Shown: positions 7,489 through 18,535 of the stretch, piece after piece | Layout of the letters: each line of letters opens with the position of its first letter | Numbering within the stretch: position 1 is the first letter of the stretch | Origin: Desulfovibrio sp. | GTDB taxonomy: Bacteria > Desulfobacterota > Desulfovibrionia > Desulfovibrionales > Desulfovibrionaceae | DNA: 18,624 bases | Direction of reading: 5' to 3' | Assembly (NCBI GenBank): GCA_020217165.1 | Contig: JAIWOE010000056.1 | Coordinates: 1-18,624, forward strand | The notes under the pieces: model-generated | Told to the model about the DNA's origin: nothing | What the model saw: only the letters and a program-made list of their open reading frames with translations | Databases searched by the model: none | Made by a program: the position numbers and the translations under genes

Positions 7489-8484
7489 TTATCCCCCCAG
7501 CACCGCTTCCCGCTGGGCCGTTCCCAGGAAGATGCCCCGGGGAGGGCGGCCATCCGTGGGATCAAATTCCGTAAACTCCAGCCGCCAGCCCTCGTCCCCA
7601 TTCTCCAGGGGCAGCACCTCGCCATCCCTGGTCAGGCGCACCTGCACCCGCCGCACTTTCAGAAAGCGGCGAGGCGCACGTAAAAAGCCGTCCACCTCCC
7701 GCAGCACCTCCTCGGGATGCCCCAGGGTCACGTCCGCCACTTCCAGGTCATGGTCCAGATCGGCCACCAGCCGGGCCAGTTCCTCCAGGGTGTTCCGTCC
7801 CGCCTCTGTCTCCCCCATGAGCCCGTGCATGGCCTTGAGTTGCAAGGAAAGGGCCTTGTGCTTGGCGGCCAGCACGGCGCGGGTGTCTGCCAGTTCCTTG
7901 CGGTGCAGCTTTTCCTGAATCACGTGGTGCAGGGCCGCGGAAACCAGATACCGCAACCCGGCACGCTGCAGCCCGGCGCGGGTGGCCTCCAGGTCTGGGT
8001 GAGGCTCCAGCAGCCGGTGCTCCCGGAAAGTGAGGGTTTCCATGCGCTCGTCCTTGAGCAGCACCTCGCCGTGCATGCGTGGGCCAAAGGTGGTACGGCG
8101 GTCCGGGGTGGCCGTCACGGCAAAATAGGCCCGGGGGGCGGCGGTGGTTTCAAAATACCGGCGCAGGCCCGCTGCCGGAGACTGCAGGAAGGCATCCAGC
8201 TCGTCAGGCGTGGCAAAGATGGCGTTGACCGTTGGGTCCGTCTGCCACTGGGTGCGGGAAAACAGATGCGCTGCCCCCAGGCTGGCCGTGACGGCCTCCA
8301 CGCGGGCCCCGGCCACCTGGCAGGCCAGGGCCAGCCGCAAGCGCCACCCCCTTGCCAGGCGCAACTCCTGCGGGCCGGTGCGGAACTGATCTTCCACCAT
8401 GTCCCAGGTGCGGCGACGTTCCAGCCCCCGGCGCCACCCGGAGACGGTCACAGCTTCTGCCATCGAGGCGAACATCGGCCACAT
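7489..8484 (-). CDS. hypothetical coiled-coil protein, 331 residues
   Basis: No family recognised. The start at ATG 8484 is set by GGAGG six bases upstream; the open frame to the right (to 8580) has no start signal. The first half is rich in Arg, Trp and Ala with short beta-like stretches. Residues about 186-251 form a long charged amphipathic helix with heptad-like leucines (EKLHRKELADTR onward), probably a coiled coil. The C terminus returns to beta-type sequence. It has neither signal peptide nor membrane helix, so it is probably cytoplasmic. Composition and codon use match the chromosomal genes to the left more than the phage genes to the right. It is on the same strand as the small gene at 8635 but separated from it by a strong terminator, so it needs its own promoter in 8485-8578, where I cannot pick out a convincing one. 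Confidence 0.75.
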   Translation of the reverse strand: MWPMFASMAEAVTVSGWRRGLERRRTWDMVEDQFRTGPQELRLARGWRLRLALACQVAGARVEAVTASLGAAHLFSRTQWQTDPTVNAIFATPDELDAFLQSPAAGLRRYFETTAAPRAYFAVTATPDRRTTFGPRMHGEVLLKDERMETLTFREHRLLEPHPDLEATRAGLQRAGLRYLVSAALHHVIQEKLHRKELADTRAVLAAKHKALSLQLKAMHGLMGETEAGRNTLEELARLVADLDHDLEVADVTLGHPEEVLREVDGFLRAPRRFLKVRRVQVRLTRDGEVLPLENGDEGWRLEFTEFDPTDGRPPRGIFLGTAQREAVLGG

Positions 8485-8578
8485 GGGTATCCTCCAGGGT
8501 GGTTGGGCCCGGTTTCCTTGGATTGGGAGGATACCACACCCCAGGGCGGCCGTGGTGCGAAAGATCTGCCCGCTGCAC

Positions 8579-8602
8579 AAAAAAAACCGCCCCGGAGGGC
8601 GG
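8579..8602 (-). terminator. intrinsic terminator of the 47-residue small membrane protein gene
   Basis: Read on the minus strand, CCGCCC and GGGCGG form a perfect 6-bp stem (plus coordinates 8597-8602 and 8587-8592) closed by a four-base loop, followed at once by eight T (8586 down to 8579). This is a textbook intrinsic terminator and lies 33 bases after the stop of the small gene. Confidence 0.88.
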
Positions 8603-8634
8603 CTGCAGGCGTGTGCAGTTGGAGGGGGCAGTAA

Positions 8635-8778
8635 TCAATGCCTTTCGGCGGGCAGGCCCGGCCCCATGCTCAGGCCGACTTCAGCGTCCCAGGGTCGTGG
8701 ATGCGAAGCGCGCCCCAAACGCCAGTGGGCCAGCATGCTGAGGCCGATACAGATTGCAATCACGGTCAGATACATCAT
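8635..8778 (-). CDS. small single-pass membrane protein, 47 residues
   Basis: An ATG-initiated frame of 47 codons plus TGA. The protein begins MMYLTVIAICIGLSMLAHW, one hydrophobic membrane segment (about residues 3-18), then a short basic stretch (WRLGRASH) and a polar Pro/Gly-rich tail ending in ERH, so the tail would be cytoplasmic by the positive-inside rule. GGAGG stands five bases before the first of two tandem ATG codons. A perfect terminator follows 33 bases after the stop, and a sigma-54-type promoter lies about 200 bases upstream. Start signal, membrane segment, terminator and promoter agree, so I take it as real although it is short. Function is not recognised. It could be a regulatory small protein of a membrane complex, or less likely a phage-borne gene, since the phage module begins 345 bases upstream. 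Confidence 0.72.
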   Translation of the reverse strand: MMYLTVIAICIGLSMLAHWRLGRASHPRPWDAEVGLSMGPGLPAERH

Positions 8779-8845
8779 GGTCACCTCCGTCTGGATCGGG
8801 AAACACCCCGAACATGGCGCTGCGGCTGGATGGACTCGCCGCGCT

Positions 8846-8866
8846 CCCCCGCCCCCCCCGCCCCCC
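8846..8866 (-). other. G-tract with G-quadruplex potential in the mRNA leader
   Basis: On the minus strand this reads as runs of 6, 8 and 5 G separated by single C. The eight-G run can supply two tracts of three, so one strand could form a four-tract quadruplex with very short loops. It would lie about 70-90 bases before the ATG of the small membrane protein, inside the leader if the sigma-54 promoter is used. Composition bias alone could produce it. Confidence 0.4.
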
Positions 8867-8987
8867 GGGAGGGCTTCCCGGCTTCAGGGCTTCCCGCCAC
8901 CCGCGATGGCTTTGAGCGACGGGAAGCACCTGAAAAACCAAGGAGGTGTGTGGAGGAGACTCGTTCATGCAGCGCTGGGATAGAGGT

Positions 8988-9004
8988 AGCCAAATGCGTG
9001 CCAA
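8988..9004 (-). promoter_or_regulatory. sigma-54 (-24/-12) promoter for the small membrane protein gene
   Basis: On the minus strand the site reads TTGGCACG-CATT-TGGCT. Compared with the consensus TTGGCACG-N4-TTGCW it matches 8 of 8 in the -24 box and 4 of 5 in the -12 box, with the obligatory GG-N10-GC spacing (GG at 9002-9001, GC at 8990-8989). Transcription would start near 8977 and first meet the 47-codon gene. It lies between genes, in the right orientation, with a dyad at about -115 as expected for an enhancer-binding activator. Confidence 0.68.
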
Positions 9005-9076
9005 CTACGCAACATTCATACATCCTGGAATATTTTTCGCCCACTCCCAGGCATTGCCCGCAACAATCCTACCATA

Positions 9077-9106
9077 TTGTCGCGTCGTGTCATCCCGGCA
9101 CGACAA
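9077..9106. promoter_or_regulatory. dyad, candidate upstream activating sequence for a sigma-54 activator
   Basis: TTGTCGCG at 9077-9084 and CACGACAA at 9099-9106 are inverted copies with one mismatch in eight, 14 bases apart. A second pairing, GTCGTG (9084-9089) with CACGAC (9099-9104), is perfect over six bases. The centre is about 115 bases upstream of the predicted start of the sigma-54 promoter, the usual distance for enhancer-binding proteins. The runs of A flanking it are on the wrong side for a terminator of the gene ending at 9124. The activator is unknown. Confidence 0.45.
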
Positions 9107-9123
9107 AAAGGTAGTCCCCTTCC

Positions 9124-9483
9124 TCATCTCCACGCCCGCACCTCCGCCAGCTCCCCGCGCACCAGCTGGGCCACGGCCTCCAGGCTCTCCAACCGGTCCC
9201 GGTCCACCTGGCTGGCCGTGCCCGCCACCATGGCCCGCAGGGGGCGGATGGCCAGGGCGTCCAGGTCGGCCAGATCCTGCAGCAGGGCGGCGCGTTCCAG
9301 GCGGGCCAGCACATCCGCATCCATGGCCCCACGCGGGTCCATTCCAAGACTGCCGTCCTCCCCGCGAAACCACCCGGCCATGTCATCCGGGGCGTACAGG
9401 TATTCCGCCCCCGCAATCTCCGGCATGGGCATGTGGTCAAAGCGCTCGTACACAACCTGTCCGTCAACAATGGCGTATTGCAT
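9124..9483 (-). CDS. small phage tail-associated protein, 119 residues
   Basis: The C-terminal half contains IRPLRAMVAGTASQVD followed by RLESLEAVAQLVR, a pattern (I-R-P-L-R-A, A-G-T-A, D, L-x-x-L-E) that I know from many small genes placed after phage tail fibre genes. It is probably helical there. The N-terminal 60 residues (YAIVDGQVVYERFDHM onward) contain several acidic and aromatic residues and look like a separate beta-type domain. The ATG at 9483 has AGGAG five bases upstream, and the start is eight bases after the fibre stop, so the two are almost certainly co-transcribed. A role as fibre chaperone or minor tail protein is inference from position; no enzyme motif is seen. Confidence 0.72.
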   Translation of the reverse strand: MQYAIVDGQVVYERFDHMPMPEIAGAEYLYAPDDMAGWFRGEDGSLGMDPRGAMDADVLARLERAALLQDLADLDALAIRPLRAMVAGTASQVDRDRLESLEAVAQLVRGELAEVRAWR

Positions 9484-9491
9484 GGCGTCTC

Positions 9492-11072
9492 CTAAATGAT
9501 GGTGCTGTAGGCATCCGCACTAGTAGAGGTGGCGCAATCCAGGATGTTCACCGTCCCCACTCGCTGGATCATAGCAGCAGTCGCCGCATGGATGCCAACA
9601 GTACCAGTCACCGTGCCGCTGCCGGCGCTGTTGGGGTCGATGGTGATGGGATAGGTGTTTCCATACAAGGACACAAACGTGTTGCGGTCCGCTGAGATAC
9701 CGCGCCCGGTAAAGTCCAGCACCTCACCACCATACATCCTGAACATGGCCTGGTTGATGACAAAGACTCCATAGTTGCCGCTCCGGATGCGCACCGGCTC
9801 GTTCTGGTTCGTCACGCCTAATGTCAGAAACGCCGCATTGCCGTCCACGAGGACCACCCACGTCCCGGATACGTTGGAGGCATGCGATATTTCCAGGTTG
9901 CAAATTGCCAGACGCGAGGTAACAGTGATTCTGCCGCTGGTAAGGTGCAGCCGCGTCGTGTCTCCTGTGCCATCCCCCATGCCACGGCCCCGGATGGTGA
10001 TGCGCGCGCCATCCACGTGATCCAGGGAAATGCCGCTAGAGAGCGTAAACACCCCGGCTCCCAACTGCACCGTCACGAATGCCGTGCTGGCGATGCGCCG
10101 CATGGAGAGCCACTCCATGGCCCGGATGAGAGTCAAAAAGGGCGCGGCCTCGGACCCGTCGCCGGTGGTGTCGTTGCCCGTGGTGCGGACATGGATGACG
10201 GTGTTCATGGGGATCACCGTGACCACGTTGGCGGCCCACCCCAGCATGTCCGACAACAACACATATTGCGGATGGTCATTGTTGCCCAGGCCCGTCAGGG
10301 CGCTGTGATCCGTCGTGCCCGGAGGACCTGGAGGGCCTGGCTCACCCTGCACACCCGGGACACCCTGCGCCCCTTGTGGGCCACGAGCGCCAGTCAGGGG
10401 ATACCACACGCCGCCAATCAGGATGTATCGCTCCACGATCTCCGGGAAGGGAACTTCGACAAAGGAATCAAGCGCGCCATGATAGATTTTGCCCTGCACC
10501 GGGTCAAAATACGTCATGGCATCAAACGTGTACGCGCCGCCGGACGACGTTGTTTGTGACGAGGATGTCAACCCATTGCGGGTTACAGACGCAAAAGAGG
10601 TGCTGCCGGTAAACGCCTCAACACCGTGCAGCAAGACCGCGGTAAATTCACTGGTGACAAAATTATTCCAGGCGTCAATGCTCGGGAGCATATGCCTGAC
10701 AACCCCCAACCAGTAGCTGGCGCTGCCTCGTACCTTCCTATTTGCCGCGGCTGGCGAGCCGACAAGCGACCAGTTCATAAGTGGGCCGGAAATAATAAAG
10801 TTCTTCTTTCCAGCCGGTTCGTAAACAGTGGGCAGCGTCGCCGTACTAGCAAAGTACCCATCGCGGCAAGGCCCGTAGCCACCGGCGGACAGCTCAAAGG
10901 CCACGGTCATCCAATCAGCCACCGTAGGAGCAACGCCCTGCACAGTGCGCACGTAGATCGTCCCGTCAGGGTGCGCCAGCGCGTCCGGAGGAAGCCCTGT
11001 TCCAGTAAGCACAAGGGCGTCACGCTGCACCGCGTGCAGGCGTCCATCCTCGCCCAATCCAAGCATTCGCAT
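9492..11072 (-). CDS. phage tail fibre with collagen-like segment and beta-helix domain
   Basis: A 526-residue protein. Residues 1-227 have no domain I recognise and would be the virion-attachment part. Residues 228-252 are collagen-like Gly-X-Y triplets (plus coordinates about 10317-10391). They are followed by DHSALTGLG and NNDHPQY (255-269), a linker often seen in phage fibres. Residues about 291-526 begin HVRTTGNDTTGDGSEAAPF, the usual opening of a right-handed beta-helix of the pectate-lyase-like type, then Gly-rich repeating beta sequence to the end. Such proteins are trimeric receptor-binding fibres; host-surface polysaccharide binding or cleavage is inference. The start is ATG 11072 with GGGAGG four bases before it; a second in-frame ATG is at 11066. 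GC content is visibly lower than in the neighbouring genes (about 55-58 percent in the two rows I counted), suggesting separate acquisition. Confidence 0.85.
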   Translation of the reverse strand: MRMLGLGEDGRLHAVQRDALVLTGTGLPPDALAHPDGTIYVRTVQGVAPTVADWMTVAFELSAGGYGPCRDGYFASTATLPTVYEPAGKKNFIISGPLMNWSLVGSPAAANRKVRGSASYWLGVVRHMLPSIDAWNNFVTSEFTAVLLHGVEAFTGSTSFASVTRNGLTSSSQTTSSGGAYTFDAMTYFDPVQGKIYHGALDSFVEVPFPEIVERYILIGGVWYPLTGARGPQGAQGVPGVQGEPGPPGPPGTTDHSALTGLGNNDHPQYVLLSDMLGWAANVVTVIPMNTVIHVRTTGNDTTGDGSEAAPFLTLIRAMEWLSMRRIASTAFVTVQLGAGVFTLSSGISLDHVDGARITIRGRGMGDGTGDTTRLHLTSGRITVTSRLAICNLEISHASNVSGTWVVLVDGNAAFLTLGVTNQNEPVRIRSGNYGVFVINQAMFRMYGGEVLDFTGRGISADRNTFVSLYGNTYPITIDPNSAGSGTVTGTVGIHAATAAMIQRVGTVNILDCATSTSADAYSTII

Positions 11073-11124
11073 TGCGCCTCCCGCATGCTGCAATGAAAAC
11101 CAGGGAGCCCCCCGGCCCATGTTG

Positions 11125-11637
11125 TTACGACAAGGTGACGGGCAGCTCCGGCAAAAAGGCCAGCTCCGTGGCGGACAGGCGCGTCCCCACCGCCTGCACC
11201 ACATTGCCCGCGCCGCTGGGGGCCGTGGCCGTGGCCTGCCCGGCCGTGGTGCTCAGGTACATGCGCGGGCCGCCAGACAGGCCCGTCAACCCCGTCACAA
11301 TGCCCGAGGCGTACACCGTGGCGTTGTTGCCCATGGACGCCGCCGCCAGCACAAAGCCGTGGGCCTCTTTGCCCTGGGTGGTGGCATCGGCCTTGCGCAC
11401 CTTGAGGGCGCCGGCGTCATCAAAGATATTCACCAGGTCCCCGGCCGCCAGGGTTTCCGCCGCCGGCAACAGCTTGGTTTCCGCGCCAATGCCCGTGGGC
11501 AGCATGGACATATCTACTTTGCCCGTGGCGTCCAGGGCCACGATCTTCCCGGCGTCCGCCGCGCCGCTGGACGCCTGCGAGGCCGCCTCTTCCACGATGC
11601 GCCCGCCGCTGTGCTTCAAATACTTGTGTCCCGCCAT
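11125..11637 (-). CDS. phage decoration/fibre-type protein, 170 residues
   Basis: The N-terminal 40 residues (MAGHKYLKHSGG, then an Ala/Ser-rich helix) are followed by LDATGKVDMSMLPTGIGAE, a short linker motif common in phage fibres and decoration proteins. Residues about 55-165 form a beta domain with GDLVNIFDDAGALKVRKADA, AHGFVLAAA, GLTGLSGGPRMYLS and GNVVQAVGTRLSAT. I recall this pattern from small phage capsid- or tail-decorating proteins. The next upstream gene (11650-12114) carries the same layout in diverged form. AGGAG lies eight bases before ATG 11637. The gap to the upstream gene is 12 bases, and 52 bases separate its stop from the fibre start. A structural role is likely; its place on the virion (head or tail) cannot be told from sequence. 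Confidence 0.72.
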   Translation of the reverse strand: MAGHKYLKHSGGRIVEEAASQASSGAADAGKIVALDATGKVDMSMLPTGIGAETKLLPAAETLAAGDLVNIFDDAGALKVRKADATTQGKEAHGFVLAAASMGNNATVYASGIVTGLTGLSGGPRMYLSTTAGQATATAPSGAGNVVQAVGTRLSATELAFLPELPVTLS

Positions 11638-11649
11638 GATGATGACTCC

Positions 11650-12114
11650 TTAGAAAAAACGTGGTTGCAAGGTAATGACCATGCGCGTGGGGCTCACGGC
11701 CTGGCCAATGACGACGATTGGGCCTGTTGCCGGCGGCTCCTGGGACAGTTGCCCCACCCCGACAAGATACACCGGCGCGTCCGGCGTCCAGTTCCAGGAG
11801 GGCTCTTCCATGGGGCCGCTGTCCCGGATGGGCACGGGGTCCCCGGCCAGGGCCGCCCCAGTGGTCAGTCCCACCAGGGCCAGGCAGTCCGCCTCCAGGG
11901 ACTGCAGGGCATAGTAGGCCCGGCCGTCCGGCCCCAGGCGCACGGCCCGGTGCCCGCCCACATCCTCCCCGGCCACGGCGGCCACGGGCTCATTGGCGAC
12001 GATGACGCGACGGTCGATGTGCACCTGGTCCCCCAGCCGCAGGGCAATGGATTCCTCCAGCACCTGCACGGCCACGGGACGATCCTCGGTGACGATGACC
12101 AGCGCCTCGCTCAT
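11650..12114 (-). CDS. phage decoration-type protein, 154 residues
   Basis: A beta-rich protein with the pattern GGHRAVRLGPDGRAYYA, then LVGLTTGAALAGDPV, then EEPSWNWTPDAPVYL, then GPIVVIGQAVSPTRMVI. This series recurs in small proteins of many proteobacterial prophages and is a diverged form of the domain in the next gene (GFVLAAA, MYLS, VVQAVGTRLSAT). The N-terminal 35 residues are a different strand-rich segment. Its ATG overlaps the stop of the upstream gene by four bases (ATGA, 12111-12114), so translation is probably coupled. No enzyme motif is seen. Structural role by analogy and position; exact function unknown. Confidence 0.7.
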   Translation of the reverse strand: MSEALVIVTEDRPVAVQVLEESIALRLGDQVHIDRRVIVANEPVAAVAGEDVGGHRAVRLGPDGRAYYALQSLEADCLALVGLTTGAALAGDPVPIRDSGPMEEPSWNWTPDAPVYLVGVGQLSQEPPATGPIVVIGQAVSPTRMVITLQPRFF

Positions 12115-12485
12115 GGCGCCACCCCCGAGAGGGCATCAGCCACCACCAGTCGGCCCACGGCCCAGACGCGGGGGCCGTCCCCGGCCTCCCACACCGCCCT
12201 GAGTTCACAGCCCCAGGTCCCCGCCGGCAGGGCCGCCGTCTGCTCCGGCGTGAGCACCAGGGCCGTCTTGCCCGCCGCGGCGTCCTCGTGCGCTGTCACC
12301 TGTACCTGCAGCAGGGGCGGATGGCCCTGTTCCACCGGGCCGGCGGCCACGGTGAACACCAGCCGCGCCCCGGTCAGGTCCACGGGCGCCGGCGGATTCC
12401 CCGCCTGCACCTGGATGGCCCAGCGCCGGCCGTCACCCCGGAACACCGGGGCCTGTGCCGCGCCCAAGAGAAACTGTTCACGCAT
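12111..12485 (-). CDS. phage protein resembling the BppU N-terminal (baseplate) domain, 124 residues
   Basis: The sequence has the layout of the small immunoglobulin-like domain known from the N terminus of baseplate upper proteins: RRWAIQVQAGNPPAPVDLTG near residues 21-40, LVFTV, and GKTALVLTPEQTAALPAGTW near residues 72-91, then a Cys-containing strand (GCELRAVW) and a short tail. Such domains anchor receptor-binding proteins to the baseplate; here the protein is only the domain itself. GGAGG stands seven bases before ATG 12485. Downstream it overlaps the decoration protein by four bases. Upstream is the 121-base gap that holds a hairpin repeat, so this gene may begin a new translational block. 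Family assignment is by pattern from memory. Confidence 0.65.
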   Translation of the reverse strand: MREQFLLGAAQAPVFRGDGRRWAIQVQAGNPPAPVDLTGARLVFTVAAGPVEQGHPPLLQVQVTAHEDAAAGKTALVLTPEQTAALPAGTWGCELRAVWEAGDGPRVWAVGRLVVADALSGVAP

Positions 12486-12510
12486 GGAAAGACCTCCAGG
12501 GGGAAAGAAG

Positions 12511-12583
12511 CATGACCAGGGGGGGCAGCGCCCCCCTGGACCCCTGCACAGGGGGTCCGGGGGAACAATGTTCCCCCGGGAAC
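12511..12583 (+). repeat. hairpin-rich GC repeat, copy 1
   Basis: Three hairpins in a row: A, CCAGGGGGG (12516-12524) with CCCCCCTGG (12531-12539), loop GCAGCG; B, GGACCCC (12538-12544) with GGGGTCC (12552-12558); C, CCGGGGGAAC (12557-12566) with GTTCCCCCGG (12570-12579), loop AAT. The start CATGAC-C and the loop sequence recur in copy 2 on the other strand. It fills the 12486-12606 gap between two phage genes. It resembles REP/BIME-type intergenic repeats rather than a terminator: no T tract follows on the minus strand. Confidence 0.7.
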
Positions 12584-12606
12584 AGGCCGTTTCTTCGTCG
12601 TCTGCC

Positions 12607-14403
12607 TCATGGCCGCACCTCTACCCGACGCACAAACGGCTGCTGCCCGGTGTGCAGCCAGTACTCCGAATTGGTCTGGCGCCGCACCCATTGGGCCGGG
12701 GTGAAGCCGCCGGGCGGGGGCGCGAGGACGCTTGCGGCGCTGCCCGGAGCATCCCAGATGTTCCAGACGGCCTGCCAGCCGCCGGACACGTGCCAGGGCC
12801 GCAGGGGCTGGGCCAGCTCCAGGGCCACCAGCAGCCGGTCCGCCGGGGTCCAGGGCCGGGGCAGGTCAAACCAGTCGGATACCAGGGGGCCATCCACGGC
12901 CACGGGATAGTCCCGGCCCGGGAATGGCGCCGGCACGGGCGCGGCCTCGAAGGTATGCAGCTCGCCATGGGCCGCAAAGCCCACCCGCAGGCCGGCCAGG
13001 GTCCAGCAGCGCACCCCGCCGCCGGCATCGGGGATGCCGGACACCCAGGGCAGGTCATGCCAGCACAGGGCCAGGCGCGCCTGACGGGCGGAAGCGGGCA
13101 GGGCCGCTGCGTCTGCCGTCGCCAGGGCCTGCCGGGGCAAGAGGATGCGCACGTGGGACCCGGCGGGCAATTCGAAGGAATACCCGGTGCGGCGGTAGCC
13201 CACGTTGCCCCCCAGGACCTCATAGACGGGCGCGCCGCCAGTGTCAGGACTTGCTGTCGAGGACGGCACATACTCCAGCCCCGCCAGGGCCAGGGGCGCG
13301 CCATCGCCCGGGGCCAAGGGCGCTTCGCCATCCGATTGTTGCGGCCCATGCCACCAGGCCCAGCCCGCCTGGGGGGCCAGGAGGCCCCGGCCATGCCGGG
13401 GGATGGCCGCGCCGGCCGGGCAATCCAGGGTCAGCAACAGATTGGGCGGCGGGGACGCTGCCGCCGGGCCTGGTGGCAGGGCCAGGGGGATCACGTCGGA
13501 GCGGGCCGGCGCCCCCGGGGCCACCGTCACGCCGGGCTGGCCGGCAAACGTCACCGCCACGGATTCCCCGGCAACAGTTCCCAGCCGGGCCGCCGTCACC
13601 TCCCAGGGAACGCCGTGGAGCGCCTCCCCGGGCTGGAGCACCAGCCGCAGGCCTTGCAGTTCCTGGCCATTCTGGGAGGGCAGCTCCAGGGCCGCCCCGG
13701 GAATCCGCAGGTGCAATCTGACGGGTTCGGCCGTCACCTCCGCGCTGTCCCAGGCCACGGGCCACATGGGCGCCGCCGCCCGGTACACGGGCAGGGCTTC
13801 GCCGTCCGCCACTTCCAGCGTCGCCACAAAGGGCAGGGTCGAGGCTTCGGCCATGGACCAATCCACAAATTCCGCCAGCCCGCGGGGGGCCGTCTCCTGG
13901 CAGGCCCGCCGGCCTGGTCCCAGGTAGAGGCGCGCCCCGGTGCCGCCCTCCACGGCAACGCAGGGCAGGTATTCATTCCAATCCCCGGGCCCGGACAGCA
14001 CCACGGAGAGGACAAGATCCTGCCCCGCCGTAAGGGCCAGGGTCGCGGGGTCCGACATGCAGACCTCCCCGGCCCGGGCGGCGGCGGTGGTGTCCCCCCC
14101 AAAGGTCAGGACCACCTGGCTGCCGTCATAGTCCCAGGGTTCGGCGTCAGGGGCCAGGGACCGATGCCCCAGCACCACCCGCCCCAGGACGTAGCCAAAG
14201 GGCATGGTGGGGGTGATGAGCCCCCGGGGCAGGGGCAGCAGGCCCAATCGCACCAGGCGCGGCTGCCCGTCCCCCAGCCTGACCCGCGCCCCGGGGATGA
14301 CCACCCGCACGGTGGTTTCCTCCCGCGCGGGATACCCGGTGTGACTGTTGCCTTCGGGCCGCGGGTCCAGCACATGCCGCCAGGTCAACGCGGGCAGGCT
14401 CAT
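12607..14403 (-). CDS. large beta-rich phage protein of unknown function, 598 residues
   Basis: No domain recognised. The protein is rich in Pro, Gly, Ala and Trp, with alternating beta-type stretches throughout and few predicted helices; no signal peptide, membrane segment or catalytic motif is seen. Length and composition suit a virion structural or baseplate-linked protein. The start at ATG 14403 shares the ATGA of the previous stop (14400-14403), a clear coupling; the frame stays open a few codons further but that would overlap more. Its C terminus (QWVRRQTNSEYWLHTGQQPF and on) is followed by hairpin-repeat copy 1. It is the middle-sized member of the block of three genes lying between the two repeat copies. 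Confidence 0.7.
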   Translation of the reverse strand: MSLPALTWRHVLDPRPEGNSHTGYPAREETTVRVVIPGARVRLGDGQPRLVRLGLLPLPRGLITPTMPFGYVLGRVVLGHRSLAPDAEPWDYDGSQVVLTFGGDTTAAARAGEVCMSDPATLALTAGQDLVLSVVLSGPGDWNEYLPCVAVEGGTGARLYLGPGRRACQETAPRGLAEFVDWSMAEASTLPFVATLEVADGEALPVYRAAAPMWPVAWDSAEVTAEPVRLHLRIPGAALELPSQNGQELQGLRLVLQPGEALHGVPWEVTAARLGTVAGESVAVTFAGQPGVTVAPGAPARSDVIPLALPPGPAAASPPPNLLLTLDCPAGAAIPRHGRGLLAPQAGWAWWHGPQQSDGEAPLAPGDGAPLALAGLEYVPSSTASPDTGGAPVYEVLGGNVGYRRTGYSFELPAGSHVRILLPRQALATADAAALPASARQARLALCWHDLPWVSGIPDAGGGVRCWTLAGLRVGFAAHGELHTFEAAPVPAPFPGRDYPVAVDGPLVSDWFDLPRPWTPADRLLVALELAQPLRPWHVSGGWQAVWNIWDAPGSAASVLAPPPGGFTPAQWVRRQTNSEYWLHTGQQPFVRRVEVRP

Positions 14404-15224
14404 GCGCCACCCCCCTCGGTCCATTCCAGCTCCAGGGCCACGGGCGGCGGAGGCGGCACGTTCTCCCCGCCACCCCGCTCCAGGCGAAGTTCTTCATCCT
14501 CGTCCGCGCCGGCAGGGGGGCCCGCCAGCAGCAGCACGGCGTTGCCCGGCCGCCACGTTGCCGCGTCCACCAGGGGCTGCAGCAGGCCGGCCAGGTCCGG
14601 CAGGGGCGCGTCCGGAGGCGGCGGGTCAAAGTCCCAGCCTCCGGCCGGTGTCCAGCCGGCCCAATTGTAGGGCCAGCTCGTGGCCCAAGGGCCAAAGGCG
14701 CTGACCATGGCGTCATAGCTCTGTGTCCAATTGCCCTGGACGATGCACCAGTCGTAGATTTCCTCCACAGTGGCCATGATGGCCGCCATGCCCTCGGGGG
14801 TGGACGGGTCTCGCTGGCCATGCCATGTCAGATTCCCCCAAAACAGGGCCACGGCATCCGCCTGGACGGTGGTCAGGCCGGGCGTTTCCGCCACGTCTGC
14901 CACCAGCTCCTCCAGCACCAGGGACAACGCCTCGGCGCTGCCAGGGGGATCGGCATCCACCACCCCGTCGCCGGGATGATGCGCTCGGAACCGCCCGCCC
15001 CCCACCAGTTGCAGCCCCGTGAGGGCCACCCGGGTCAGGGTCGCCCCCTGGGGCACGGCCAGGCCCCGGAAGCACCACCAAGCATGCAGCCCCCGGTACC
15101 CGCCGCCGTAGACGTCGGGATGCTCCCCGGGCCGGTGCCAGGTGAGGCGGAGGTCGTGGGAGTGATGCAACTCCAGTTGCCCGGCGTCCCACGGATGGGC
15201 CAGGGGAACCACCTGCGTGGGCAT
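14400..15224 (-). CDS. phage protein of unknown function, 274 residues
   Basis: Not recognised. The first 75 residues are beta-type with many aromatic residues (HHSHDLRLTWHRPGEHPDVY, GLHAWWCFRGL). Residues about 90-160 are helical and acidic. Residues about 165-200 are Trp-rich (GPWATSWPYNWAGWTPAGGW). Then come a Pro/Asp-rich linker and a charged tail with a run of Pro (PPPPP) near the end. GGAGG lies eight bases before ATG 15224, and the start is three bases after the stop of the upstream frameshifted gene; the end overlaps the next gene by four bases. This tight packing indicates one translational unit with its neighbours. A virion role is inferred from context only. Confidence 0.68.
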   Translation of the reverse strand: MPTQVVPLAHPWDAGQLELHHSHDLRLTWHRPGEHPDVYGGGYRGLHAWWCFRGLAVPQGATLTRVALTGLQLVGGGRFRAHHPGDGVVDADPPGSAEALSLVLEELVADVAETPGLTTVQADAVALFWGNLTWHGQRDPSTPEGMAAIMATVEEIYDWCIVQGNWTQSYDAMVSAFGPWATSWPYNWAGWTPAGGWDFDPPPPDAPLPDLAGLLQPLVDAATWRPGNAVLLLAGPPAGADEDEELRLERGGGENVPPPPPVALELEWTEGGGA

Positions 15225-15227
15225 GGG

Positions 15228-15784
15228 CTAATCCTCCACCTGCAGGGTGGTTTCCGACAGGGCGCCGCCCGCCAGGGTCACGGCGTTGCCCGCGCCGCCC
15301 AGGCTGGTGACATGCAACACCAGGATAGCTGCGCCGCAGGTGTCCCACGCCAGCACCGGGGCCAGGTAGTCGCCGCCGCCGGCGCTGTCCCGTAAGGCGC
15401 TGGCCTCGCTGGTCCGGGGCTCCAGCATGCCCGCCACATATAAGACGGCGTTGACTTGCCGCAGCACCACCGGCGTAATGACGGCCACGCCATCCGGGGC
15501 CGTGTGCCGGGGGCCACCACCAGCCGGTCACAGTCCCCCACGGCCACCAGGGAGGCCCCGTACCAGGCGTTCACGGCATGCACGGACGAGGCGGGCAGCG
15601 CCACCGGGTCCGGTGTGGCCACGGCCGAACGCAGCACGCGGGACCAGTCGGGCAATTGCCGCGAGGCGAAGTCCACCAGCTGAATGACGCGGCTGTCCCC
15701 CGTGGCTGTGGGCTGCACGGCGGTGCGGGTGGCGATGACGTCGCCGCCGCTCACGGCGCTGCGAATGCGGGTGCCAAGTTCCAT
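15228..15784 (-). CDS. phage protein split by a one-base frameshift, about 185 residues if restored
   Basis: Two reading frames together make one credible protein. The first starts at ATG 15784 (AAGGAG six bases upstream) and is convincing for about 92-96 residues (MELGTRIRSAV to DRLVVAPGTRP), after which it turns into Trp/Cys/Pro-rich nonsense ending at 15278. The second frame, from about 15495 to 15228, continues in good style (DGVAVITPVVLRQVNAVLYVAG to LQVED) and ends three bases before the next start. One added base between 15496 and 15513, where the minus strand has C4 and C5 runs, restores a single 185-codon frame. The cause may be a sequencing error in a homopolymer, a real mutation, or programmed -1 frameshifting. 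Sequence as it stands encodes two pieces: 15278-15784 and, from GTG 15488, 15228-15488. Function unknown; likely structural. Confidence 0.65.
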
Positions 15785-15807
15785 AGAAGGCTCCTTTGGG
15801 GGAGTGC

Positions 15808-15902
15808 TTGGGGGAGCAGGGCTCCCCCCAAACCCCCGCCAATGGGGTGTTATATGTCCCCCCTGTCGCAGGGGGCCCGGGGGGGCGCTGCCCCCCCGGC
15901 AT
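15808..15902 (-). repeat. hairpin-rich GC repeat, copy 2, inverted relative to copy 1
   Basis: Read on the minus strand it has the same order as copy 1: hairpin A (CCGGGGGGG, 15891-15899, with CCCCCCCGG, 15877-15885, loop CAGCG), a CCCCTGC segment forming B, and hairpin C (GGGGGAGC with GCTCCCCC, 15810-15817 and 15821-15828, three-base loop). The CATGCC start and GGCAGCG core match copy 1. About 25 extra bases, richer in A and T, lie between B and C. It fills the gap between the gene ending at 15941 and the gene starting at 15784. Confidence 0.65.
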
Positions 15903-15940
15903 GCTCCTCTCTTCCTCCGCCCTTCTTCTCCCTCTCCTGG

Positions 15941-18535
15941 CTACGCCTCCGGGAACGGGTACGGCGCGGGGGTGATGGCGCTGCCGGCGTAGCGGGTCAC
16001 GCCCTTGGTGATGCGCAGGGCCACCAACAGTCCGCTGAAGTATCGGGAGGCGTTGTCCCCGGCCCGGCCGATGCCCAGGGGGGACACCAACGTGCGCGGG
16101 GCGCCAGAAAAGCTGACGATGCCCTCCCGCACGCCATTGACGTACAAGGCCAGGTGCGTGCCCGTGAACACCCCGGCCAGGTGGTAGAGGGTGTTGGGGG
16201 CCAGGACGCTGGAACCCAACACGCTGAAATTGGTGTTGCTGGCGTTGGCCACCAGGAATTGGGCCTTGCCGTTCACCAGCTGCAGCTGCCAGGGCGTGTA
16301 GGCCCCGCCGCTGTTGCGCACGCCGCACCAGGTTTGCGAGGCTCCGCTGGCGGGCACGGTGTCGAACTGCAGCCAGGCTTCCACGGTGAATTCGGCATCA
16401 GGATAGAAGGCGTCGGACTGGGGCACGCTCAAATAGTCCCCGCTGCCGTCAAAGCGCAGGGCCGGCACGGGCAGGGCGGCCGTGTCCACGGCCACGTCTC
16501 CGTACCGGGTGACGGGTTTGCCTGTGGCATCCAGCACGGGCAGGGCGGCCGGGGCGTTGAGGCACAGTTGCACGAACTCGAAGGACGCATCCACGGTGCG
16601 CCAGGCCAGATGCAGGCGCGGGGCCTGTTCTGGCAACGCGTCCACCCCCAGGCCGCAGCACAGGAGGGAGGCCGCCAACGCCGGCTCCTCCGGCGTCAGG
16701 GGGGTCTGGTCCAAACAATGCAGGGTCAGACTGCTGCCGGGGTTCCAGTGGGGATGGGACAGCGCCTCCTGCACCACGTCCGTGAGGTCCGGGGAGGTGA
16801 GCACCTGGCCCGGCGCGGCGTCCCGGGGCAGGGACCAGGCCACGGCGGCGGTGGTGCCGGGCACGGCGTTCCAGTCGTCAAAATTGCGGGGCCTCGAGGC
16901 ATCGCCCAGGGCGCTGGCCTGCAGGGTCAGGGTGATGTCCTGTTGCGGATTGAACAGGCGGCGGTCGTGCAGGGCCTGGGGGGACACCGTCAGCTCCAGG
17001 GCCGCGGCGGTGACCTCCACCCCGGCCGGGATGGGCAGGTCCTCAAAGGTCAGGCAGGCGGCATGGCGCTTGTAGCCCGGCACCGGGGGCCACACCCCCA
17101 GGCGGATGACGGCTGCGCCGTGGGTCAGGCGGTTGTCTTCGGCCACCACCTGCATGACGTCGGCCCGGTGGCGCACGGGGAACACGGCGGCTCCCGTGGG
17201 CAGGGGCTCAACGGTGACGGGTGGGGCGGCTTCGCCGGCTGCTTCAACAGCGCCTTGGGATATGGCTGGGGGCGCATTGCCCGTCACCTGGCACGCCACG
17301 CCGAAGAACCAGCGCGGGCCAGCCCCGGCCGGGGCGCGCACGCTGGTGTAGGCCTCGATCTGCAACGCGTCGGCCACGGTCCAGATGGGGGTGAACAGGC
17401 CATATCCTGTTCCGGCCCCGGCAAAATACAGGCCGATGATCTTGAACTGCCCGCCGATGAGCCCCAGGACCACGCTGCCCGAGTCCCCGGGCTGGTTGGT
17501 GACGCCGCCGGAGGCCCCCGCGGCAAAGACCATCTGCCCCGTGAACACGGCGGCCAGGGTCTCCACAAACCGGGGCACGGCGTCCTGTTCCCAGCCGGGC
17601 AGGCGGGAATAGACATCGCCATAGCTGATGGTGCTGGCGGCGCTGGTGCTCAAGATGGTGCCCAGGGCCGGGGGCACGCGCCCCGTGGTGCGGCCGGCCT
17701 TGTAGATGGGCATCCCCCGCACCACCTCAGCCCGGGTGGCAAAGGGCAATGGCCCGGCGGTGATGTCCAGCATGCCCCAGGCGGCTTCCACCCCCGCATC
17801 CAGGGCAATGAGCCCGCCGTCCACGGTGTTGGCCGGGGCTGCAGGGAATTTCACCACAACATCCGGGAAGGGCCAGACGGCAAACCCCTCGTCAGGAACA
17901 CCATTTGGATGGTCCAGGCGGGTGGCCTCGGCAAAGGCCAGGGGCGCCATGCGCTTGGCCACGCCAATGCGGTCGCGTTCAGGGTGCCCCGTGTCCGGCA
18001 CAGCGGGCTGGTGCACCACCACGCGGCTGGGATCGTTCTCCCCGAACCAGGGACGGCCGTAGGACGGATGATAGGCCAGCCCCAGGCAATGGTTTTTGGT
18101 CAGCCCCACCAGCCGCCCGTCCCCGGCGTCCCGCACCACGGCCCCCAGGGTGCCGGCGGCTTCGGCGCACCAGGGCCAGCGGGCATGAAACATGGAAATG
18201 CCGCCCACCAGGGGCCGATGCCGGGCAATGGCCCGGTCGCAGCCAAGGTCGCGGACCTCGGGGCAGTTGCGGCGGGGCCGGGCCGTGGGCCGGGGCATGG
18301 TCACCACATCCGTGGGCACGCTGCCCCCTGGCCCCATGAGACGGGGGGGAACGACCGCTTCGGGGGGCAGCTCGTGCAGGGGCACCTTTTTAGGCACGGC
18401 CACCACCACGGCGGGCTGCCCCGTGTCCTTGCCGCCGGTGGTCTTGGTGCCGGCCATGACCAGGGTGGCGCCGGTGCGGGCCATGAGGTCCCGGGCCTGT
18501 TCCGCCACCATGGATTCCACACGCTGCATGCTCAT
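15941..18535 (-). CDS. phage-borne Nal1-like serine protease fused to DNRLRE-like and LamG-type domains
   Basis: An 864-residue protein of three parts. Residues 1-120 hold the leading segment usual in this protease family (GKDTGQPAVVVAVPKKVPL, GSVPTDVV, GGISMFH). Residues about 125-400 are a trypsin-fold protease: His149 in LTKNHCLG, Asp239 in NTVDGG, Ser352 in PGDSGSVV, with the typical KAGRTTG at 279-285. All three catalytic residues are present. Residues about 445-640 contain EDNRL and repeated beta strands with a FDDWN segment, like DNRLRE surface domains. Residues about 675-855 are a LamG/concanavalin-like jelly roll (ALRFDGSGDYLSV, FTVEAWLQF, YHLAGVF, LALYVNGV, ALRITKG). The start is ATG 18535, immediately after the upstream TAA. 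It has no signal peptide, so it is not secreted by Sec; it is probably a virion protein. Protease target is unknown: self-cleavage, virion maturation or host-surface proteins are all possible. Confidence 0.8.
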   Translation of the reverse strand: MSMQRVESMVAEQARDLMARTGATLVMAGTKTTGGKDTGQPAVVVAVPKKVPLHELPPEAVVPPRLMGPGGSVPTDVVTMPRPTARPRRNCPEVRDLGCDRAIARHRPLVGGISMFHARWPWCAEAAGTLGAVVRDAGDGRLVGLTKNHCLGLAYHPSYGRPWFGENDPSRVVVHQPAVPDTGHPERDRIGVAKRMAPLAFAEATRLDHPNGVPDEGFAVWPFPDVVVKFPAAPANTVDGGLIALDAGVEAAWGMLDITAGPLPFATRAEVVRGMPIYKAGRTTGRVPPALGTILSTSAASTISYGDVYSRLPGWEQDAVPRFVETLAAVFTGQMVFAAGASGGVTNQPGDSGSVVLGLIGGQFKIIGLYFAGAGTGYGLFTPIWTVADALQIEAYTSVRAPAGAGPRWFFGVACQVTGNAPPAISQGAVEAAGEAAPPVTVEPLPTGAAVFPVRHRADVMQVVAEDNRLTHGAAVIRLGVWPPVPGYKRHAACLTFEDLPIPAGVEVTAAALELTVSPQALHDRRLFNPQQDITLTLQASALGDASRPRNFDDWNAVPGTTAAVAWSLPRDAAPGQVLTSPDLTDVVQEALSHPHWNPGSSLTLHCLDQTPLTPEEPALAASLLCCGLGVDALPEQAPRLHLAWRTVDASFEFVQLCLNAPAALPVLDATGKPVTRYGDVAVDTAALPVPALRFDGSGDYLSVPQSDAFYPDAEFTVEAWLQFDTVPASGASQTWCGVRNSGGAYTPWQLQLVNGKAQFLVANASNTNFSVLGSSVLAPNTLYHLAGVFTGTHLALYVNGVREGIVSFSGAPRTLVSPLGIGRAGDNASRYFSGLLVALRITKGVTRYAGSAITPAPYPFPEA

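Follow-up and report, generated by a model that had tools for sequence, protein, structure and literature searches.

A probable small membrane protein gene under sigma-54 control, with a structured leader RNA, common to one genus of sulfate-reducing bacteria

The stretch of DNA analysed here (the window; 18,624 nucleotides, contig C191 of genome G000, which is 87% complete) probably carries a real transcription unit, common to the sulfate-reducing genus Megalodesulfovibrio, that combines a sigma-54 promoter, a folded leader RNA and the gene for a 47-residue membrane protein. The reading that we favour, with a probability of about 0.72, is a sigma-54 mRNA that depends on an enhancer, has a structured leader and encodes a single-pass membrane protein. 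An initial annotation had described an architecture of five signals, namely an upstream dyad, a -24/-12 element, a Shine-Dalgarno sequence, a short frame opening with a membrane helix and a terminator. All five were located at the places given for them (Table 1); that description had overlooked the leader RNA with its 19-pair hairpin, which is the best-conserved stretch after the promoter.

Table 1. Features of the predicted transcription unit in the window
Feature	Position	Strand	Evidence
Dyad, core TTGTCG-N18-CGACAA at 9077-9106	9069..9114	.	Inverted repeat in window and G001
-24/-12 sigma-54 element TGGCACGCATTTGGCT	8988..9003	-	One mismatch; 15/16 identical in G001
Conserved 5' leader RNA, from predicted start (~8977) to hairpin end	8884..8977	-	78/94 identical to G001
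Invariant 14-mer UCUCCUCCACACAC	8946..8959	-	Identical in both genomes
Leader hairpin, 19 pairs	8884..8933	-	All 19 pairs form in both sequences
Shine-Dalgarno GGAGG	8784..8788	-	Sequence; G001 has AGGAGGTG before its ATG
47-codon gene, predicted single-pass membrane protein	8635..8778	-	Orthologues P0002 and P0003; dN/dS; predicted helix
Putative intrinsic terminator, T8	8579..8604	-	Stem 8604-8585; eight T at 8586-8579

Conservation of the promoter region

The DNA-level comparison is one of two genomes, G000 and G001. Along the unit, identity between them is 34/46 in the dyad, 31/65 in the spacer that follows it, 15/16 in the promoter, 2/10 in the ten-base stretch just ahead of the predicted start (8987-8978), 78/94 in the leader, 27/105 from the end of the leader to the ATG (8883-8779), 83/144 in the frame and 58/135 after it, and a separate comparison of segments with slightly shifted borders gave the same picture. 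Conservation thus halts after the -12 element and restarts at +1, which is the pattern that a real transcription start would give. Among 365 other 16-column stretches of intergenic alignment, seven are also at least 15/16 identical, and all seven lie in the dyad or at its edge.

The near-consensus -24/-12 match reported earlier is borne out, with one mismatch to TGGCAYGN4TTGCW and an intact GG-N10-GC. Its counterpart in G001, TGGCATGCATTTGGCT, is one base away, a change that the consensus allows, and in both genomes GG and GC lie exactly 10 bases apart in an element with one mismatch. Taken alone, such a match does not rise above chance: the window contains one site with at most one mismatch against 0.60 expected, and 85 of 200 shuffles have at least one. 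Across the whole genome, G000 has 77 sites of this quality against 25 for a reversed-pattern control, and G001 has 74 against 32; hence some 57-68% of these sites would be genuine before position is taken into account. As promoter and terminator are each found at about chance level, the case rests on conservation at the same place in G001. Loss of the frame or of GG-N10-GC in a close relative had been named at the outset as the observation that would speak against the unit; in G001 both are conserved, and a small membrane protein gene under predicted sigma-54 control is therefore well supported by the sequence comparison.

Both genomes were searched for the trans-acting components that such a promoter would need. 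Matches to the activator domain PF00158 number 25 in G000, of which 22 score above 140 bits, and 28 in G001, of which 25 do; as matches to this domain occur in all 14 control genomes, only the strong ones were counted, and by these both genomes encode candidate enhancer-binding proteins. In G001, the 80 kb on either side of the locus contain no PF00158 match. The sigma-54 gene (PF04552) is present in G001, and the lack of a PF04552 match in G000 perhaps reflects its incomplete assembly.

The small membrane protein

The frame comprises 47 codons and a stop, and its ATG at 8778 is preceded at five bases by the GGAGG, as had been described. A search of 39 genomes, among which G001 is the only other member of the genus, matched the protein in two, G000 itself and G001 (57% identity over 42 residues). 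A search of 5.8 billion proteins adds two orthologues, P0002 (85%) and P0003, the latter a hypothetical protein of Megalodesulfovibrio gigas by its NCBI name and identical letter for letter to the G001 frame; the longer N-terminus of P0002 is probably the gene-caller's choice of an upstream start. When a profile of the family was run against 247 genomes of the bacterial family, 62 had a match with E of 0.1 or less, of which only G000 and G001 are strong (E of 1.4e-26 or less), the remaining 60, considered only as a group, having E of 0.004 or worse and scoring below 19 bits. No copy was found in viral contigs, nor in a broad genome-contig collection from which near relatives may be absent. None of the three members matches a Pfam family up to E 10, and the window protein has no PHROG match.

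Over 38 aligned codons the window and G001 frames differ by 20 synonymous and 17 non-synonymous changes, distributed 9/7/21 over the three codon positions (dN 0.23, dS 2.0, dN/dS about 0.12). The two shifted frames of the same strand lack such an excess of dS, so that on the minus strand only the 47-codon frame has dS above dN; one antisense frame also has it (1.35 vs 0.29), as expected because third positions face each other. These values, with the orthologues, indicate that the short frame is indeed a gene, under purifying selection at the sequence level and predicted to be translated. The invariant residues lie mostly from residue 13 on, and comprise L-S-x-L-A-H-W-R, G, A, HPRPW and AE. An AlphaFold prediction with three sequences (mean pLDDT 72.7) places one helix at residues 2-25 and a weaker one at 29-37, pLDDT being about 91 in residues 1-20; the hydropathy peak is the 17-residue stretch starting at residue 1 in all three proteins. 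The membrane helix proposed to open the frame is thus recovered by both approaches, and the models predict one membrane-spanning helix.

The leader RNA

The hairpin forms the end of the conserved leader. Of its 19 pairs, 15 are unchanged between the window and G001, three show one-sided changes, one a double change, and none is broken. Folding z-scores of the two sequences are -2.24 and -2.47, and sliding the pairing partners lowers pairing from 100% to 40-61%. When the same five substitutions are dealt randomly over the stem, all pairs are kept in 7548 of 200,000 trials (about 4%), so that the pair-preserving changes lend the predicted stem moderate support; a covariation shuffle control (245/500) is powerless with two sequences. 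Ahead of the hairpin lies UCUCCUCCACACAC, which resembles an anti-Shine-Dalgarno sequence, and has a mean unpaired probability of 0.78 in the window and 0.45, partly paired, in the full-length fold of G001.

Searches at the DNA level matched the leader in two of 59 genomes, both of the genus. A covariance search of the 247 family genomes returned 12 with E of 0.1 or less, of which only G000 and G001 are convincing. The other ten lie outside the genus (E 9e-5 to 0.09, the best in G045 with 9e-5); nine of these ten loci were inspected (L028-L031 and L033-L037, with L032 left out), and none has a consensus-like promoter element at the right distance, some carrying a bare GG-N10-GC, so these matches were taken as chance. 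Rfam gave no match in the window, and three weak ones in 8550-9150 (E 1.5 to 4.5), none above the gathering score. No leader was found in viral contigs, and three contigs from unrelated phyla that fitted the leader pattern in the genome-contig collection were likewise attributed to chance. Two other identities of this segment were rejected: as a coding frame it would be broken by a 2-base indel between the genomes, and as a terminator the hairpin would need a U-run after it, which it does not have.

The upstream dyad

The dyad had been placed about 115 bases upstream of the predicted start. It is present, its centre lying some 114 bases ahead of 8977 in the window and, in G001, some 113 ahead of the start predicted there near G001:C2:158661. 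In the window its 19-nt arms (9069-9087 and 9096-9114) are 79% complementary, and in G001 its arms of 15 nt are 100% complementary; the core and its spacing are exact in both genomes, and this is the only exact copy in each. Copies of the core with one mismatch number two against six for a control pattern in G000, and six against six in G001. The dyad was accordingly dismissed as a marker of a wider regulon, there being no second exact copy in either genome and near copies being at control level. What it binds is a matter of interpretation: a role as the activator site is a candidate that we put at about even, and rate as the most likely of three options, the other two being that it is an operator and that it forms a hairpin at the 3' end of the phage-like tail operon upstream. 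In G001 the stop codon of the tail gene sits between the arms of the dyad. A second GG-N10-GC site, TGGTAGGATTGTTGCG (9059-9074, minus strand), overlaps the dyad edge in the window; its G001 counterpart has one base missing and the spacing is lost.

The terminator and the downstream gene

The proposed T8 terminator is present in the window, with its stem starting 30 and not 33 bases after the stop codon, at a level where 0.9 such structures are expected by chance in 8000-9600. Nothing terminator-like was found in the equivalent stretch of G001 (L003:8200-8850), and therefore a downstream gene of 331 residues might be co-transcribed with the small gene in M. gigas. The gene order common to the window and G001 is a serB-like gene, the 331-residue gene, the small gene and tail-type genes.

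The 331-residue protein (window 7489-8484, minus strand) has no Pfam or PHROG match. Distant relatives (21-30% identity) occur in six of 79 genomes beyond the genus's two, and adjoin different genes in the loci listed. Seven other proteins of the window were compared with the 3.6-kb loci around these relatives (L008-L014) and none matched, so that genomic context gives no function for it.

The phage-derived neighbourhood

Upstream of the unit the window contains a phage-derived cluster of tail-type genes (9124-18535, minus strand), with a counterpart in G001 (L052:1321-13291) where, as read from the list of open reading frames, genes for a coat protein of the P22 type and for a likely scaffold are followed by apparently cellular ones. 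Of the ten G001 cluster proteins scanned, none was recognised as a portal or terminase. Relatives of the coat protein occur in five of 59 genomes, with 92% identity between the congeners and 68% in G011. The cluster may represent a domesticated particle or a gene-transfer agent. An 864-residue protein of the tail cluster (15941-18535, minus strand) has a protease-type N-terminus (phrog_20754, and a NARROW LEAF 1 match below the Pfam cut-off) and a C-terminal lectin-like Laminin_G_3 domain.

Alternative readings

Two alternatives give the RNA itself a larger part; both are variants of the preferred reading, and the odds assigned to the different readings do not sum to one. In a self-regulated mRNA, which we consider unlikely, the CUCCUCC of the leader would mask the message's own GGAGG, forming a cis switch thrown by a ligand, temperature or ribosome traffic. 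The leader and Shine-Dalgarno regions folded alone do form duplexes (-15.8 kcal/mol in the window and -13.3 in G001), but the masking pairs are at 0.0 when either full transcript is folded as an equilibrium ensemble, and conservation is lacking in the spacer that leads from the leader to the gene. That same figure, 0.0 expected pairs between the 14-mer and its own Shine-Dalgarno sequence in both full transcripts, is in favour of a dual-function RNA, in which UCUCCUCCACACAC would pair with other mRNAs at their ribosome-binding sites and the molecule that carries it would also encode the 47-residue protein. We regard this as slightly less probable again. The 14-mer is invariant and the leader is more conserved at the DNA level than the coding part (78/94 against 83/144); against this, the hairpin is not followed by a U-run, Rfam holds no match, and in the full-length G001 fold only about half of the 14-mer is unpaired. 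The sequence TGTGGAGGA followed by 3-10 bases and an ATG occurs five times in G000 and six times in G001, against 0 and 2 for the controls, one of the five being this locus on its other strand and two of the six being a single site; these 9-nt complements upstream of an ATG are few in number, and chance may account for all of them. Two of these sites are common to both genomes, one of them inside a longer open frame. The other (G000:C198:7074-7091 and G001:C2:491036-491053; L062 and L063) is an evident ribosome-binding site, complementary to UCUCCUCCACACAC over 9 bases, before the gene for a 167-residue iron-sulfur-type protein that we take to be the beta subunit of APS reductase, an enzyme at the core of sulfate respiration. 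This predicted complementarity is a lead only, as by our estimate chance alone would give a few such sites. The fuller proposal, that a Megalodesulfovibrio sigma-54 dual-function RNA represses its targets, with the APS reductase operon as candidate, through an exposed anti-Shine-Dalgarno sequence while the membrane protein serves the same response, is a long shot. Nothing was found in the literature on a link between an sRNA and APS reductase in Desulfovibrio, or on CUCCUCCC sRNAs of Rhodobacter.

The remaining alternatives concern the origin of the transcript and of the gene. A sigma-70 promoter might lie over the dyad, with an extended -10 TGGTAGGAT ending at 9066, in which case the dyad would be a repressor operator and the -24/-12 match incidental. 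There is a single 9/12 match that has TG ahead of its -10 (0.2 expected in 8000-9600), and the TGGTAGGAT segment is identical in G001; yet G001 has no matching -35/-10 pair on this strand, and such a promoter does not predict the sequence of 31/65 identity between dyad and -24, 15/16 in the element and 2/10 before +1, which makes it decidedly improbable. More improbable still is that the frame serves the adjoining phage-derived capsid and tail cluster as a lysis or accessory gene, the unit being part of a domesticated particle. The small gene does come after the last tail-type gene in both genomes, and the cluster of G001, with its coat and likely scaffold, is matched in G000 by a coat protein 92% identical. 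However, the small gene appears to have its own promoter, neither the window protein (PHROG) nor any of the three members (Pfam) matched a known family, and G011 has the coat gene yet no match to the small protein.

A model for the unit and comparison with known systems

Under the preferred reading of an enhancer-dependent sigma-54 mRNA, an enhancer-binding protein, probably sitting at the dyad, would allow RNA polymerase with sigma-54 to open the promoter, and the transcript would start near 8977 and end at the terminator at 8579. Its first 94 or so nucleotides would be the leader, in which a long hairpin follows a short CU-rich stretch. The conservation of the leader is observed directly, and its function may be control of the translation or stability of its own mRNA. 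The message would then be translated into a single-pass membrane protein of 47 residues (50 in M. gigas). By the positive-inside rule the conserved second half, LAHWR-G-A-HPRPW-AE, is predicted to be cytoplasmic, and it would most likely dock on a larger partner in the inner membrane when the signal of the activator is present. The simplest model of its role is that of a small subunit or modulator, induced by a signal, in a larger membrane complex; the initial annotation had suggested that it may tune a transporter or kinase.

Sulfate reducers have unusually many sigma-54 activators, and 87 sigma-54 promoters, 36 regulons and four non-coding RNAs are reported for D. vulgaris (PMC4641369). The D. 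vulgaris regulons resemble the present unit in having a GG(-24)/GC(-12) promoter and an upstream dyad and in being small, four of the units being non-coding RNAs (PMC4641369). The dyad common to our two genomes reads TGT-N22-ACA, whereas a TGT/ACA spacing of 9, 11 or 12 bp is reported for three of the D. vulgaris motif groups (PMC4641369); of our two sequences, the window alone also contains a TGT-N12-ACA. A further difference from D. vulgaris is that the 247 family genomes hold no convincing homologue of the leader or the protein outside the genus. Among the matches listed, no literature on this sigma-54 unit appeared under the genus or species name, which is not proof of its absence from print.

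PspG of E. coli is, like the small protein here, encoded by a stand-alone gene. It is a small inner-membrane protein controlled by PspF and sigma-54, and is predicted to have two helices against the one predicted for the window protein (PMC2763126). No homology to PspG is apparent, as judged from the absence of Pfam matches for the three members noted above. A different parallel is offered by SgrST and VcdRP, in the first of which the small protein SgrT has 43 residues. On one transcript these systems, too, carry a frame for a small protein (29 residues in VcdP) together with a non-coding segment that is conserved, but their pairing sequence is distal, after the frame (PMC8672173), whereas here the conserved RNA precedes it and pairing in trans is putative. 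The leader, having no Rfam match, also stands apart from the Qrr sRNAs of Vibrio. The latter are not known to carry a small membrane protein. They are comparable as sigma-54-dependent regulatory RNAs (PMC10162802).

Significance

Neither the small protein, in Pfam, nor the leader, in Rfam, matched a known family here, and the exact coordinates of the unit can be tested cheaply in M. gigas, a cultured species. If the reading is true, the sigma-54 regulome of sulfate reducers would gain a family of small proteins as well as a structured leader RNA.
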